From positions 62,001 through 126,000 of the forward strand of contig CAMDZD010000002.1 of NCBI GenBank assembly GCA_945910815.1: a stretch of DNA of 64,000 nucleotides, given 5' to 3'. Below are positions 28,166-35,607 of this stretch, one piece after another. The notes under the pieces are model-generated. The model was not told the DNA's origin. It saw only the letters and a program-made list of their open reading frames with translations, and did no database searches. The position numbers and the translations under genes were made by a program. Every line of letters begins with the position of its first letter. Position 1 is the stretch's first letter. Source of the stretch: an uncultured Clostridia bacterium. GTDB lineage: Bacteria > Bacillota > Clostridia > Oscillospirales > Ruminococcaceae.

Positions 28166-28191
28166 GGGCGGACATTTTTCACTGTCCGCCC
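28166..28191. terminator. Bidirectional terminator hairpin GGGCGGACA/TGTCCGCCC
   Basis: Perfect 9-bp stem between convergent genes; the minus-strand stop codon lies in the loop. Confidence 0.8.
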
Positions 28192-30728
28192 GATTTTTTA
28201 TGGCTGAATTTTTCCGCATACTCTTTGATTTCACGTTCCGTATTTTTCATTTCCTCAAGAAATTCCTGAGATGATATTCTGTATGCTCCGTTGCCGAGAA
28301 TAATCATCTGTTCAAGATTATCAGATGTCGCTACACGCACACGGTAATCCCTTACAAGCTCATGGGATATTTTTTCAATATATGAATCAGCCGTTTCCGA
28401 TTCTTTTGTATATACAACGTCTATATTGTTTACACGTTCATAAGAACCGCTGTTTCCTTTTACTTTGTAGGCATCAAATACAAGTATTACTTTGCATTTT
28501 CTGAATCCCTGATAGTTGCAGAGCTTGTTTATAAGCGTATTTCTTGCAAGGTCAAGGCTTTCGGCAAACTGCTTTTTAAGTTCGTCCCACGAAAATATTA
28601 TATTATATCCGTCAACAATAAGATATTCGCCTTTTTTCGGCGGAGCTGATTTGTATTCCGTTTTCTGTTCGGGTGCTTTGTGAAGTGCCTGACGTTCATC
28701 ACGGTTTATTTTTCCGTATGTACGTTCAAATATCTGCATAAGCTCTTTATCTTCTTCAAGTGAACCGCTGTATTGTTTTTTTGATACGGGAACAGATACC
28801 GTTTCCGTAATCTTTTTCTCCTGTTTCAGACAGCTTTCAAGATGCATATAATTTTCCACTTCGTTCCACTTTACCAGAAAGCCTGCACCGTGCTTGCAGA
28901 ATATCGAATCCGCTGTATTTTCGGTATCTTCATCGCAGTTATATCCGATTTCCGAAATGATTTTTTCAGGATTACGGCAAGGCTTGTATCCCTCAAGCAT
29001 ACACGTCAGACGACCTTTTCCCTTTGTATATCCGGCAAGCTCCGTATGATATTCACGGATTGTTTCAACAGGAACCGTTCCCTTTATTACGGACATATTA
29101 TTATAAGTTTCGGGAACTGAAAAAACAGCGTCCATAAACTGTATATCGGAAAGAGCCTTTCCGACAAATTCGGAAGGTACTTCAAGAGTAAAATTATAAT
29201 ATGGTTCAAGAATTACGCTTTCAGCCTTACGGAGTCCGTTCCTTACTGCCCTGTATACCGCCTGCCGGAAATCTCCGCCCTCTGTATGCTTTAAATGAGC
29301 CTTTCCCGATACAAGAGTAATATTCATATCGGTTATGGGTGAACCTGTAAGTACTCCGATATGCTGTTTTTCCTTTAAATGCGTTATAATAAGCCTCTGC
29401 CAGTTACGGTCGAGCAAATCTTCACGGCAATTCGTATAAAAATGAAGTCCGCTACCTGTTTCGGCAGGTTCTAAAAGAAGATGTACTTCCGCATAATGCC
29501 TTAAAGGTTCGTAATGCCCTACGCCCTCCGATTTGCTTTTAATAGTTTCCCTGTATGCAATTTTACCCTGCGAAAATTCTATTTTAATTCCGAAACGTTC
29601 CGCAACTATGCTCTTTATTACTTCAAGCTGAATTTCACCCATAAGCTTTATATGTATTTCCTGTAAGCTTTCGCTCCATATTATATTCAATTCGGGAAAT
29701 TCATCTTCAAGCTTTTTCAGATTTTTCATAACAGTATGTGCATCGGAATCGGGCGGTATTTCTATTTTATACGACAGAACAGGTTCAAGCTTTGGCATAT
29801 CTGAATTTTTTTCAGCTCCGAGACCTTCTCCGCAGTATGTTTCTGAAAGTCCCGTTACTTCGCAAATCATACCGCTTTCCGCAACATCAGTAAGTGTGAA
29901 TTTGTTTCCGGAATAAATTCTTATCTGATTTACTTTTTCGCCATTCAGTATTGATTTTACTTTAAGATTTCCGCCTGTTATTTTCATATGCGTAAGACGG
30001 TTTCCGTTTCCGTCCTCGGATATTTTAAATACTCTGGCTGAAAATTCATTTTTATACTTCGGGGCAAGAGTATATTTTTCCATAATTTCAAGCAGTTTGT
30101 CAACTCCCTGCATTTTCAGTGCCGAACCGAATACGCACGGAAAAATTTTTCTGTCTCTTATATTCCGTGATATGCTTATATCGGAAATTTTTTCCGTTTC
30201 AAGATATTCCTGCATAAGTTTTTCATCACAAAGTGCGGTATCTTCATAAAAATTAACGCTTTCAGAATCAATACAGTTTCCGCTGAGATGAGTTTTTATA
30301 TCTGACATAATTTCATTGCGGTCAAGTCCCGAAAAATCCATTTTGTTTATAAATATAAATACGGGTATATTATATATTTTAAGCAGTTTCCATAGAGTTT
30401 CCGTATGGCTCTGGACTCCCTCCGCACCGTTTACAACAAGTATTGCATAGTCAAGAATCTGCAGTACACGTTCAGTCTCGGAAGAAAAATCAACATGTCC
30501 GGGAGTGTCAAGAAGTGTAAATTCCATATTTTCAGTTTTTATATACGCCTGTTTTGAAAATATTGTTATTCCCCTCTGACGTTCAAGTGAATGTGTATCA
30601 AAAAAAGTATTCTTATGGTCAACACGTCCGTGCTTTCTTATTGCTCCGGTACGGTATAATATGGCTTCTGAAAGAGTAGTTTTTCCGGAGTCTACATGGG
30701 CAAGTATTCCTGTAACAAATCGTTTCAT
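28179..30728 (-). CDS. TetM/EF-G-like translational GTPase fused to a C-terminal YacP/Rae1-type NYN ribonuclease domain
   Basis: N-terminus GILAHVDSGKTTLSEAILYRTGAI, ERQRGITIFSK, DTPGHVDFSSE, NKMD; C-terminus YLIVDGYNIIFSWDELKKQ...VILVFDAYKVKG...VVYTKESETADSYIEKISHEL...VRVATSDNLEQMIILGNGAYRISSQEF. Confidence 0.9.
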   Translation of the reverse strand: MKRFVTGILAHVDSGKTTLSEAILYRTGAIRKHGRVDHKNTFFDTHSLERQRGITIFSKQAYIKTENMEFTLLDTPGHVDFSSETERVLQILDYAILVVNGAEGVQSHTETLWKLLKIYNIPVFIFINKMDFSGLDRNEIMSDIKTHLSGNCIDSESVNFYEDTALCDEKLMQEYLETEKISDISISRNIRDRKIFPCVFGSALKMQGVDKLLEIMEKYTLAPKYKNEFSARVFKISEDGNGNRLTHMKITGGNLKVKSILNGEKVNQIRIYSGNKFTLTDVAESGMICEVTGLSETYCGEGLGAEKNSDMPKLEPVLSYKIEIPPDSDAHTVMKNLKKLEDEFPELNIIWSESLQEIHIKLMGEIQLEVIKSIVAERFGIKIEFSQGKIAYRETIKSKSEGVGHYEPLRHYAEVHLLLEPAETGSGLHFYTNCREDLLDRNWQRLIITHLKEKQHIGVLTGSPITDMNITLVSGKAHLKHTEGGDFRQAVYRAVRNGLRKAESVILEPYYNFTLEVPSEFVGKALSDIQFMDAVFSVPETYNNMSVIKGTVPVETIREYHTELAGYTKGKGRLTCMLEGYKPCRNPEKIISEIGYNCDEDTENTADSIFCKHGAGFLVKWNEVENYMHLESCLKQEKKITETVSVPVSKKQYSGSLEEDKELMQIFERTYGKINRDERQALHKAPEQKTEYKSAPPKKGEYLIVDGYNIIFSWDELKKQFAESLDLARNTLINKLCNYQGFRKCKVILVFDAYKVKGNSGSYERVNNIDVVYTKESETADSYIEKISHELVRDYRVRVATSDNLEQMIILGNGAYRISSQEFLEEMKNTEREIKEYAEKFSHKKSGGQ

Positions 30729-30793
30729 AAAAAATCGTTCCAATCAAAAGTTTTTTTATTTATTATATCATAAATTCTGCATATATTCAAGTA

Positions 30794-30828: not shown

Positions 30829-31272
30829 TTACAGAAATTTTCGCATATTCGCCATAAGATTTTCTTCAATGCTTATTAGTTTTTTTGCCATATTCTTTGA
30901 TTTTTCATCAGCAGATTTATACTGATTCAGATATTTGTAAAGCGATTTCACTCCCATATTACAGCCGTCTGTTATAAGGTCTGCAACAACATCATCTGAT
31001 TCATTAACAGCTAATTTCACATTTGTTTTTATCCATGACATTCCCTTAGCCATAGCACTGGGTTCCTTGCCGTCATCGTGATACTCGTTAAGAAGTTCAA
31101 GAAGATTATTTTTTATTTTCTCGTGTTCCTCAAGGCTTTTCAGCAATGCACTTTTAAGCTCATGATTTTCAGTATATTCAAGAACATCATTAATTGCTGA
31201 TACGCCCATTTTAATCCCTGCATCACATTCACGGAGCAGTCTTATAGTATCCTGTTCAATCAAATTAATCAC
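30829..31272 (-). CDS. Uncharacterised helical (ferritin-like/DUF2383-like) protein at the end of the cobalamin cluster
   Basis: 147 aa, amphipathic helices MINLIEQDTIRLLRECDAGIKMGVSAINDVLEYTENHELKSALLKSLEEHEKIK; start overlaps the end of cbiP. Confidence 0.6.
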   Translation of the reverse strand: MINLIEQDTIRLLRECDAGIKMGVSAINDVLEYTENHELKSALLKSLEEHEKIKNNLLELLNEYHDDGKEPSAMAKGMSWIKTNVKLAVNESDDVVADLITDGCNMGVKSLYKYLNQYKSADEKSKNMAKKLISIEENLMANMRKFL

Positions 31273-33749: not shown

Positions 33750-34693
33750 AATATCACCTCAAAAATTAAAATTCTGAATATTACTGATAAAATCAGCATT
33801 AATACTGTTGTCATATACATAAGCTTATTCGCTCTGATTATGTCACCTTTTTCAACAGGTCTTGTATTATCACCTATATACGGCTTTTTGTGAAGTTTCC
33901 CGAAATAATATGCATCTCCTGCAAGACGTATATTCAAAGCTCCGGCACATACGGATTCTGTCTGTGCGGAATTGGGGCTTGCGTGCTTTAATCTGTCACG
34001 TTTCCATATTTTATATGCGGATTTCCCGTCATATTTCAGAATATACGCTGATATTATCATCAGAATTGCTGTAAGTCTTGACGGAATATAATTCAGAACA
34101 TCATCAAGCTTTGCGGAAAATCTTCCGAAATCCTTATATTTTTCGTTCCTGTATCCGACCATTGAATCCATTGTATTTGCTGACTTGTAAAAAAATCCGA
34201 GAACTGCACCTCCGAATGCCATATAAAAAATCGGTGCTGTTACTCCGTCAGAAGTATTTTCCGCAACCGTTTCAACAGTAGCTTTTATAATTCCCTCAAA
34301 ATCAAGCCTTTCGGTATCTCGTCCCACTATCATTGATACGGCTTTGCGTGACTTTTCAATATCGTTTTCCGCAAAGGTTTTATATACTTTCATACTTTCG
34401 GTTTTCAGGCATTTCGGAGCTATCAGATACCAGCACATTACCGATTCGGCAGTAATCCCCAGAATTATATTTATTTTATAACATAATAACAGTATCAGAA
34501 ACGGTACTGCCGTTGACAAAAACAAAACAGTCAGAGTCATAAAAATTCCGCCGATATATAATTTTTCCGGAAATAATTTCCGCATAAGCTTTTCAAGATT
34601 TGAAATAAGCTTTCCGATAAGCCTTACAGGGTGCGGAAAATTATAAGGGTCTCCGAATATGCAGTCAAGAATAAATCCAATTAATATGCTCAT
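33746..34693 (-). CDS. cbiB: Adenosylcobinamide-phosphate synthase
   Basis: DCIFGDPYNFPHPVRLIGKLIS, VGRDTERLDFEGIIKATVETVAENTSDGVTAPIFY, NTMDSMVGYRNEKYKDFG. Confidence 0.96.
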   Translation of the reverse strand: MSILIGFILDCIFGDPYNFPHPVRLIGKLISNLEKLMRKLFPEKLYIGGIFMTLTVLFLSTAVPFLILLLCYKINIILGITAESVMCWYLIAPKCLKTESMKVYKTFAENDIEKSRKAVSMIVGRDTERLDFEGIIKATVETVAENTSDGVTAPIFYMAFGGAVLGFFYKSANTMDSMVGYRNEKYKDFGRFSAKLDDVLNYIPSRLTAILMIISAYILKYDGKSAYKIWKRDRLKHASPNSAQTESVCAGALNIRLAGDAYYFGKLHKKPYIGDNTRPVEKGDIIRANKLMYMTTVLMLILSVIFRILIFEVIF

Positions 34694-35607
34694 ATACTCT
34701 CCCTGATTTTTAAATATTTTCCGTCAAAATCCGTGATATAGCCTCCGCCGTTCAATACCTGATAATCATAGAACGATTTTTTCGGAAATCCGTATTTTTC
34801 AAGCACCGCCATTATGACTCCTCCATGAACCACAAATGCAACAGACCTGTTATATTTTTTTATTATATCTTCAAATGCATTACAGCATCTTTTTTTAAAT
34901 ATTTTGGAACTCTCACCGTTCGGAGGTTCTGCAATACCGTCAATCCATTTTATATAATCGGGGTTTTCGCATAATTCAGAATAATTTTTGCCCTCAAAAT
35001 CTCCGAAATCAGTTTCACGCAGATTTTTATTTATAATTATTTTTTTATCGGGATATATTAATTCCGCTGTCCGAATACATCTTTTCATCGGACTTGATAC
35101 AAGAATATCACATTCGGAATAATCTTTTCCGGAAAGTTCAGCCATTCCCTCAACGCATAAATCCTCGTCAGTTCTTCCGATATAGCGTTTTTCAAGATTG
35201 CCGGCAGTTTTCCCGTGACGGATAAACACAACGGTCATAGCTTTTATAATCTGTGCAATACCGCATGACATTCTTATTACGGCAATTGATTTTTCCGCAA
35301 CCCAACAGCATAATCTACCCGTATTTTCACGCCATATTCTTTCGGATTTCTCAACGGGAACTATTCCCTCGCCTATTATATCCGCAATTATTATTATATC
35401 GGGATTTTTGTTTAAAATATCTTTTATATCGTCAATGCTGTATTTCTTAGTGAGATACTGAAAATTATAAACGCATTTCGCATTAATCAAATCATTTATA
35501 TTGCAGTTTTTACCGTTTATCATATCGGATTCCGATATACCGTAATAATTTACTGCATAATTTTTTTTACCCTGATATGCTCCTCCTGTTATCATTATCA
35601 ACAGCAT
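34690..35607 (-). CDS. cobC: Degenerate CobU-like domain fused to alpha-ribazole phosphatase (CobC, histidine phosphatase)
   Basis: N-terminal ITGGAYQGKKN...IGEGIVPVEKSERIWRENTGRLCCWVAEK (CobU-like); C-terminal VVFIRHGKTAGNLEKRYIGRTDEDL...RETDFGDFEGKNY...FVVHGGVI (phosphatase RHG, ETDFG, H). Confidence 0.88.
   Translation of the reverse strand: MLLIMITGGAYQGKKNYAVNYYGISESDMINGKNCNINDLINAKCVYNFQYLTKKYSIDDIKDILNKNPDIIIIADIIGEGIVPVEKSERIWRENTGRLCCWVAEKSIAVIRMSCGIAQIIKAMTVVFIRHGKTAGNLEKRYIGRTDEDLCVEGMAELSGKDYSECDILVSSPMKRCIRTAELIYPDKKIIINKNLRETDFGDFEGKNYSELCENPDYIKWIDGIAEPPNGESSKIFKKRCCNAFEDIIKKYNRSVAFVVHGGVIMAVLEKYGFPKKSFYDYQVLNGGGYITDFDGKYLKIRESI

Follow-up and report, generated by a model that had tools for sequence, protein, structure and literature searches.

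A Tet-like GTPase fused to a YacP/Rae1-type NYN domain in Clostridia and the apparent displacement of free-standing yacP

Introduction

GTPases of the EF-2 family place their domain IV in the ribosomal A site, as is established for EF-G and TetM. Other proteins act on the mRNA itself: SmrB/MutS2 and RelE are ribosome-associated mRNA nucleases. We know of none among these nucleases and their like that joins a translational GTPase and a nuclease in one chain. Rae1 (YacP) needs the ribosome for its activity, and to our knowledge it is not settled how a nuclease of this kind reaches the A site. PMC8266666 describes this protein as a ribosome-associated A-site endoribonuclease. In TetM, loop III of domain IV is held to displace tetracycline, and mutants with a substituted loop III can stay active (PMC4750697).

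The two types of protein have been reported in one chain. For ten clostridial species, Atkinson 2015 (PMC4342817) reports Tet proteins that have gained an NYN RNase domain resembling YacP. The fusion receives one sentence there, is placed in Tet and is proposed to involve a novel resistance mechanism with RNase (rRNase) activity. Neither experimental work on the GTPase-NYN architecture nor another paper about it was found in the literature searched. The architecture is already on record and is not new.

The present analysis concerns one such gene in a window, i.e. the whole analysed stretch of 64,000 nucleotides from an uncultured clostridial genome (GCA_945910815.1). Its protein combines a Tet-like GTPase with a following YacP-type NYN domain in a member of the Clostridiales, the same architecture as in the proteins of Atkinson 2015, and it is almost certainly one of them. 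An earlier sequence-only reading of the window had suggested that similar proteins are annotated as TetM-like or as translation factor GTPases. This was right: one member is labelled 'translation factor GTPase family protein', and Atkinson 2015 describes Tet plus YacP-NYN. The breadth of the fusion, the separate status of its GTPase subfamily, an unfused sister group and the displacement of yacP go beyond the passages of PMC4342817 considered here. As far as the searched literature shows, subfamily status, scale and the displacement of Rae1 with relics at its old locus are new.

The fusion gene and its domains

The 849-aa protein is encoded by a single uninterrupted frame (window 30728..28179, minus strand), with the ATG at 30728 and the stop at 28179-28181 (Table 1). 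The frame, the Pfam matches and the alignment to solved structures bear out the architecture proposed in the sequence-only reading, and every motif quoted there was found. The GTPase part comprises the five EF-G/Tet domains in order (residues 1-586), where the Pfam matches start at residue 6 and that of domain II is weak. It thus shows the features of the EF-2 family, namely a G domain, the EF-G domains II-V and the catalytic His. By sequence, its nearest solved chains are TetO and TetM. The NYN part (residues 703-844) is matched by Pfam PF05991 with an E-value of 9.5e-53 and 179 bits (cut-off 24.6). It aligns over its full length with the solved B. subtilis YacP/Rae1 (5MQ8/5MQ9, E=1.5e-29).

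The order of GTPase followed by NYN domain had been predicted correctly. The GTPase region of about 640 aa needs a small correction: the core stops at about residue 586, and the extension that follows it at about residue 630. The stretch KHGAGFLVKWNEVENYMH, formerly read as part of the linker, is that C-terminal extension, which is also terminal in unfused relatives. These end at the YMH of the extension, which places the fusion point there.

Table 1. Features of the fusion gene and its surroundings in the window
Feature	Window position	Strand	Basis or remark
Fusion gene, complete, 849 aa + stop	28179..30728	-	ORF and Pfam
G domain, residues 6-219; P-loop AHVDSGKTT, DTPGH with H78, NKMD	30072..30713	-	Pfam GTP_EFTU, 2.5e-52
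EF-G domain II, residues 228-297	29838..30047	-	Pfam EF-G_D2, weak, slightly below its cut-off
EF-G domain III, residues 315-386	29571..29786	-	Pfam EFG_III
EF-G domain IV, residues 388-503	29220..29567	-	Pfam EFG_IV
Domain IV tip, loop I region GVGHYEPLRHYAEVHL, residues 402-417	29478..29525	-	Subfamily signature; not in TetM/O/W or EF-G
Domain IV tip, loop III HLKHTEGGDFR, residues 478-488	29265..29297	-	Subfamily signature; YSPVSTPADFR in TetM/O/W
EF-G domain V, residues 506-586	28971..29213	-	Pfam EFG_C
C-terminal extension, residues 587-630	28839..28970	-	Folded in AF2 model; also C-terminal end of unfused relatives
Linker, residues 631-700, mostly disordered in AF2 model	28629..28838	-	AF2 model and alignment
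Conserved short linker helix, residues 655-671, DxELxxIFERTYG	about 28716-28766	-	AF2 model and alignment
Predicted YacP/Rae1-type NYN endoribonuclease domain, residues 703-844; D706, D752, D781, E785, D803	28197..28622	-	Pfam
Possible own promoter TTGAAT-17-TATAAT, 10/12, extended -10	30762..30790	-	Regional number of such sites not above chance
Inverted repeat followed by T-run, terminator of purL (+)	28166..28191		Overlaps last codons of fusion gene

In the AlphaFold2 model, built with 41 fusions (mean pLDDT 83), the C-terminal extension is folded. The linker contains two disordered segments (636-659 and 675-698), one on either side of the helix 655-671. The pLDDT of the linker lies below 50, so that the position of the NYN domain is not fixed by the model. 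The comparison of the whole model with known structures is dominated by EF-G and adds nothing on the placement of the NYN domain; its TM values are 0.34-0.57 because the domains move. In the linker helix, E662, I666 and T670 are each kept in at least 90% of the aligned fusions. No known counterpart of this helix was identified, and a LEEIDRIINRTYYANQGKK-like form occurs in another group of fusions. Some Lachnospiraceae-type fusions (loci L106, L115 and L117) have longer, low-complexity linkers, with frames of up to 1086 aa.

An assembly artefact was considered and rejected, as dozens of independent assemblies contain full-length fusions of about 845-960 aa. The window contains no Rfam match. 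A 147-aa protein (window 30829-31272) with only a sub-cut-off match to DUF2383 is encoded between the fusion gene and a series of cobalamin genes. Within that series, a shortened CobU, matched by Pfam over profile positions 109-166 only, shares one frame (34690-35607) with a histidine phosphatase, perhaps an alpha-ribazole phosphatase.

A GTPase subfamily apart from TetM, TetO and TetW

Judged by its sequence, the GTPase belongs to a separate subfamily far from TetM/O/W and fails Tet membership. Its best NCBIfam match is the general tet_protect model (NF012153), at 413 bits of the curated cut-off of 775, and the TetM/W/O/S model reaches 279 bits of 1100. The fusion shares with TetM/TetO/TetW the succession of domains I-V and intact GTPase motifs, at 27-29% identity across some 590 residues. 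It differs in its domain IV tip loops, its sub-cut-off score, its distant position in the tree, the added linker and nuclease, and its absence from the usual resistance plasmids.

The tip loops GH(F/Y)EPLRHYAEVH and KHTxGGDFR are invariant or near-invariant and common to the fused and unfused members; both are absent from TetM/O/W and EF-G. Instead of the TetM-type loop III YSPVSTPADFR (with L505 and S508-P509-V510), the window protein carries HLKHTEGGDFR. As TetM mutants of this loop can stay active, the difference does not prove a lack of tetracycline protection. Compared to EF-G, the domain plan is the same and a His is found at the aligned tip position of loop III, whereas the tip loops differ (QSGGxGQYG in EF-G, EPLRHYAEV in the fusion) and only the fusion has a nuclease. 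Two ordinary EF-G-type genes are present elsewhere in the window's genome.

In a tree of 89 GTPases, one clade holds all fusions (SH-aLRT 100) together with an unfused protein of Ligilactobacillus salivarius, and unfused clostridial GTPases branch beside it. In this tree, which covers TetM/O/W among the Tet classes, the subfamily lies next to them but on very long branches. The claim of the sequence-only reading that the protein is not of the TetM type is upheld as to sequence signature (tip loops, NCBIfam scores) and would also fit the phylogeny.

The gene was also considered as a mobile resistance gene, and this was rejected. Among 72,556 plasmid records, only a copy on a 518-kb 'plasmid' of Monoglobus and unfused copies of L. 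salivarius and Paenibacillus were found. The unfused relatives are labelled as TetM/TetW/TetO/TetS family in PLSDB. On L. salivarius megaplasmids (L175 7986-9920, others) the unfused relative is 42-48% identical, groups with the fusions and has the tip loops of their subfamily, and it bears the label TetM/TetW/TetO/TetS tetracycline resistance.

Spread and conservation

A domain search for GTP_EFTU, EFG domains and NYN_YacP, as the sequence-only reading had suggested, was run together with a survey of the taxonomic spread. The fusion is carried by 103 of 292 genomes sampled across Clostridia (about a third), and 18 of the 292 have a GTPase of this subfamily in unfused form. Full-domain matches of the subfamily score at least 248 bits, other EF-G-type proteins at most 126. 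Fusion-length copies also occur in some genomes of the same phylum outside Clostridia. Full-length fusions were read from 21 families, with named loci in Ruminococcus flavefaciens, Herbinix, Mediterraneibacter, Robinsoniella, Monoglobus, Hydrogenoanaerobacterium and others. They form essentially one fusion lineage.

The G-domain motifs, H78 of DTPGH included, are invariant in 41/41 fusions. Loss of the acidic nuclease residues in most orthologues had been named beforehand as an observation that would speak against a ribosome-directed nuclease. Such a loss was not seen: D706, D752, D781, D803 and E785 are invariant in 119/119 fusions (a set that includes a few duplicates) and in 24 stand-alone YacPs; the four Asp align with D7, D53, D81 and D104 of Rae1. 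No recurrent gene neighbour was found across about 120 subfamily loci, the largest cluster comprising 15 loci in mixed positions and strands. The fusion therefore probably acts alone, and no partner is expected.

Displacement of free-standing yacP

The ancestral place of yacP is between rlmB and sigH (mrnC-rlmB-yacP-sigH operon). Gene content, locus structure and relics indicate that the fusion has repeatedly displaced this free-standing yacP/Rae1 gene. A stand-alone YacP that passes the Pfam cut-off is present in 0/103 fusion genomes versus 91/189 others (p=4e-18 with three marginal matches counted as YacP). Phylogeny confounds this class-wide contrast, but much less so the relics and the within-genus swaps, of which there are only about five. 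YacP is also absent from 98/189 genomes without the fusion, so that its loss is easy and the co-loss is weaker evidence than it appears. Apparent second NYN genes in three fusion genomes of one genus were sub-cut-off matches of 21 bits and were dropped.

The rlmB locus was examined in 25 fusion genomes besides the window's own, and 20 of them keep the rlmB-sigH junction. An intact yacP is missing there in 20/20 (E 1e-4, yacP query of the same group), and rlmB and sigH lie 117-629 nt apart. In the non-fusion relatives, by comparison, yacP is found between the two genes in 6/6 loci read, with rlmB and sigH 616-699 nt apart. The two genes are not neighbours in the window's genome, which makes the ancestral site unreadable there. 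A check for a separate yacP, proposed with the sequence-only reading, showed that this genome has a single NYN_YacP, the fused one.

The contrast also holds among close relatives. In genus g30, G018 and G048 carry the fusion and G182 and G265 carry yacP; in g91 the same holds for G235 versus G097, and in g35 for G023, G123, G184, G220 and G267 versus G053. At the family level, G064 and G155 (fusion) contrast with G291 (yacP) in f48, and G019 (fusion) with several genomes that have yacP before sigH in f24.

At least three fusion genomes contain decayed relics of yacP. In G023 the remains of yacP, interrupted by stops and a frame shift, lie between rlmB and sigH (L217 2200-2760; 63 bits), and their two pieces share 48% and 64% identity with the intact yacP of G053. 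Shorter relics in G100 (L220) and G077 (L219) score clearly above all 40 shuffles, and weaker ones in G267, G073 and G163 barely above the shuffles. Candidates in the gaps of G203, G119, G019 and G048 were not above the shuffles and were rejected.

In the NYN tree the split between fused NYN domains and native stand-alone YacPs is supported (98/99), with 141 columns that leave the deeper order unresolved and the long rows L172/L173 unsure. From this split, it looks as if a ready-made fusion had arrived and the native gene had then decayed, and not as if the fusion had formed locally.

Compared to B. subtilis Rae1/YacP, the fused NYN domain aligns along its length and all acidic residues are kept. 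Rae1-type YacP, however, has about 170 aa and is encoded as a free protein in the rlmB-yacP-sigH operon, while the fused domain is tethered to a GTPase, is encoded at another chromosomal place and has lost a tail. An L-E-K-x-R-like C-terminal tail is present in 24/24 stand-alone YacPs versus 4/117 fused copies; in the fusions it has been lost or altered. The window fusion lacks this LEKxR tail and lies outside the mrnC-rlmB-yacP-sigH operon. In a simple reading, the tail of stand-alone YacP would have served a targeting that is now provided by the GTPase, and its loss is as expected if the GTPase took over this role.

Genome G221 has a fusion-type NYN domain as a separate gene with an LEKIR tail (L019 / L205 6787-7308), away from rlmB/sigH, and an unfused GTPase elsewhere. 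The separate NYN may be a fission product or a pre-fusion remnant. YacP is lacking in 7/18 genomes with an unfused GTPase, which indicates that this GTPase has some job of its own. An enrichment of stand-alone YacP with the unfused GTPase was considered and gave no clear signal (11/18 vs about half elsewhere).

Proposed function and alternatives

The repeated replacement of Rae1 by the fusion suggests RNA cutting on the ribosome. The functional overlap with Rae1 assumed in the sequence-only reading is supported, and the displacement of yacP at its locus is independent evidence for it. We hold it moderately probable that the fusion is a ribosome-directed endoribonuclease that takes over the job of free-standing Rae1 (YacP). 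In the proposed mechanism, the GTP-form of the EF-G/Tet-like part would bind the factor site of a ribosome with an empty or stalled A site. The tip of domain IV, with a loop set of its own, would reach in the direction of the decoding centre. Some 70 residues beyond the C-terminal extension would tether the Rae1-type NYN domain, which would then cut mRNA in or beside the A site. GTP hydrolysis would subsequently free the factor, and tmRNA and exonucleases could clear the products; tmRNA is present in the window's genome. Ribosome binding, mRNA as substrate, cutting in the A site and the order of these steps are what we infer. Domain IV and the NYN domain cannot fill the A site together, so that the cut may be made after partial release or at another place on the ribosome. 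The proposed action resembles that of SmrB/MutS2 and RelE, with mRNA being cut on a stalled ribosome.

A ribosome-bound NYN domain would also reach rRNA and A-site tRNA. Its targets may be these RNAs, at the factor site or the A site, and not mRNA, with a part in rRNA maturation, quality control or ribosome inactivation; we regard this as unlikely. Stand-alone yacP adjoins rlmB (23S methylase) and mrnC (23S maturation), and an rRNase activity was proposed by Atkinson 2015 (PMC4342817). Against this, PMC8266666 and the title of Leroy 2017 that it cites present the displaced Rae1 as an mRNA endonuclease that depends on the ribosome.

It is less likely still that the NYN domain keeps the job of Rae1 and is merely carried by the GTPase, with independent activities and neutral co-transfer. 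The long disordered linker of the AlphaFold2 model would fit such an arrangement, as would the occurrence of the unfused GTPase with and without YacP and the separate NYN and GTPase genes of G221. However, at least 21 families have retained the fusion, the linker helix is conserved (E662, I666 and T670), and the loss of the stand-alone tail suggests dependence on the new partner.

Least probable is a Tet-class protein that protects against tetracycline or another A-site antibiotic with the NYN domain as accessory: tet_protect is the best NCBIfam match, TetO/TetM are the nearest solved structures and the unfused relatives bear Tet labels in PLSDB, but the score is far below the cut-off, loop III departs from TetM at L505 and S508-P509-V510, the branch to TetM/O/W is very long, the gene is single-copy in a third of Clostridia and nearly absent from plasmids, and the loss of yacP would be left unexplained, points that the active TetM loop III mutants (PMC4750697) keep from being decisive.

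Implications

Taken further, the reading of the fusion as a ribosome-directed successor of Rae1 leads to a broader and more tentative proposal, which we put forward as possible. The fusion may be a single-chain bacterial mRNA-surveillance factor, in which the GTPase recognizes the state of the A site and delivers its own nuclease. It may have spread through Clostridia by gene transfer, making Rae1 redundant each time. With the displacement, the scale and the subfamily status, what had been a single-line remark becomes a hypothesis that can be tested. A natural fusion to an A-site-type GTPase, together with the decaying free gene, makes the question of delivery to the A site directly testable. 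Many gut Clostridia may be mislabelled as carriers of a TetM-like resistance protein although theirs is a different kind of translation factor, which matters for resistance surveys.
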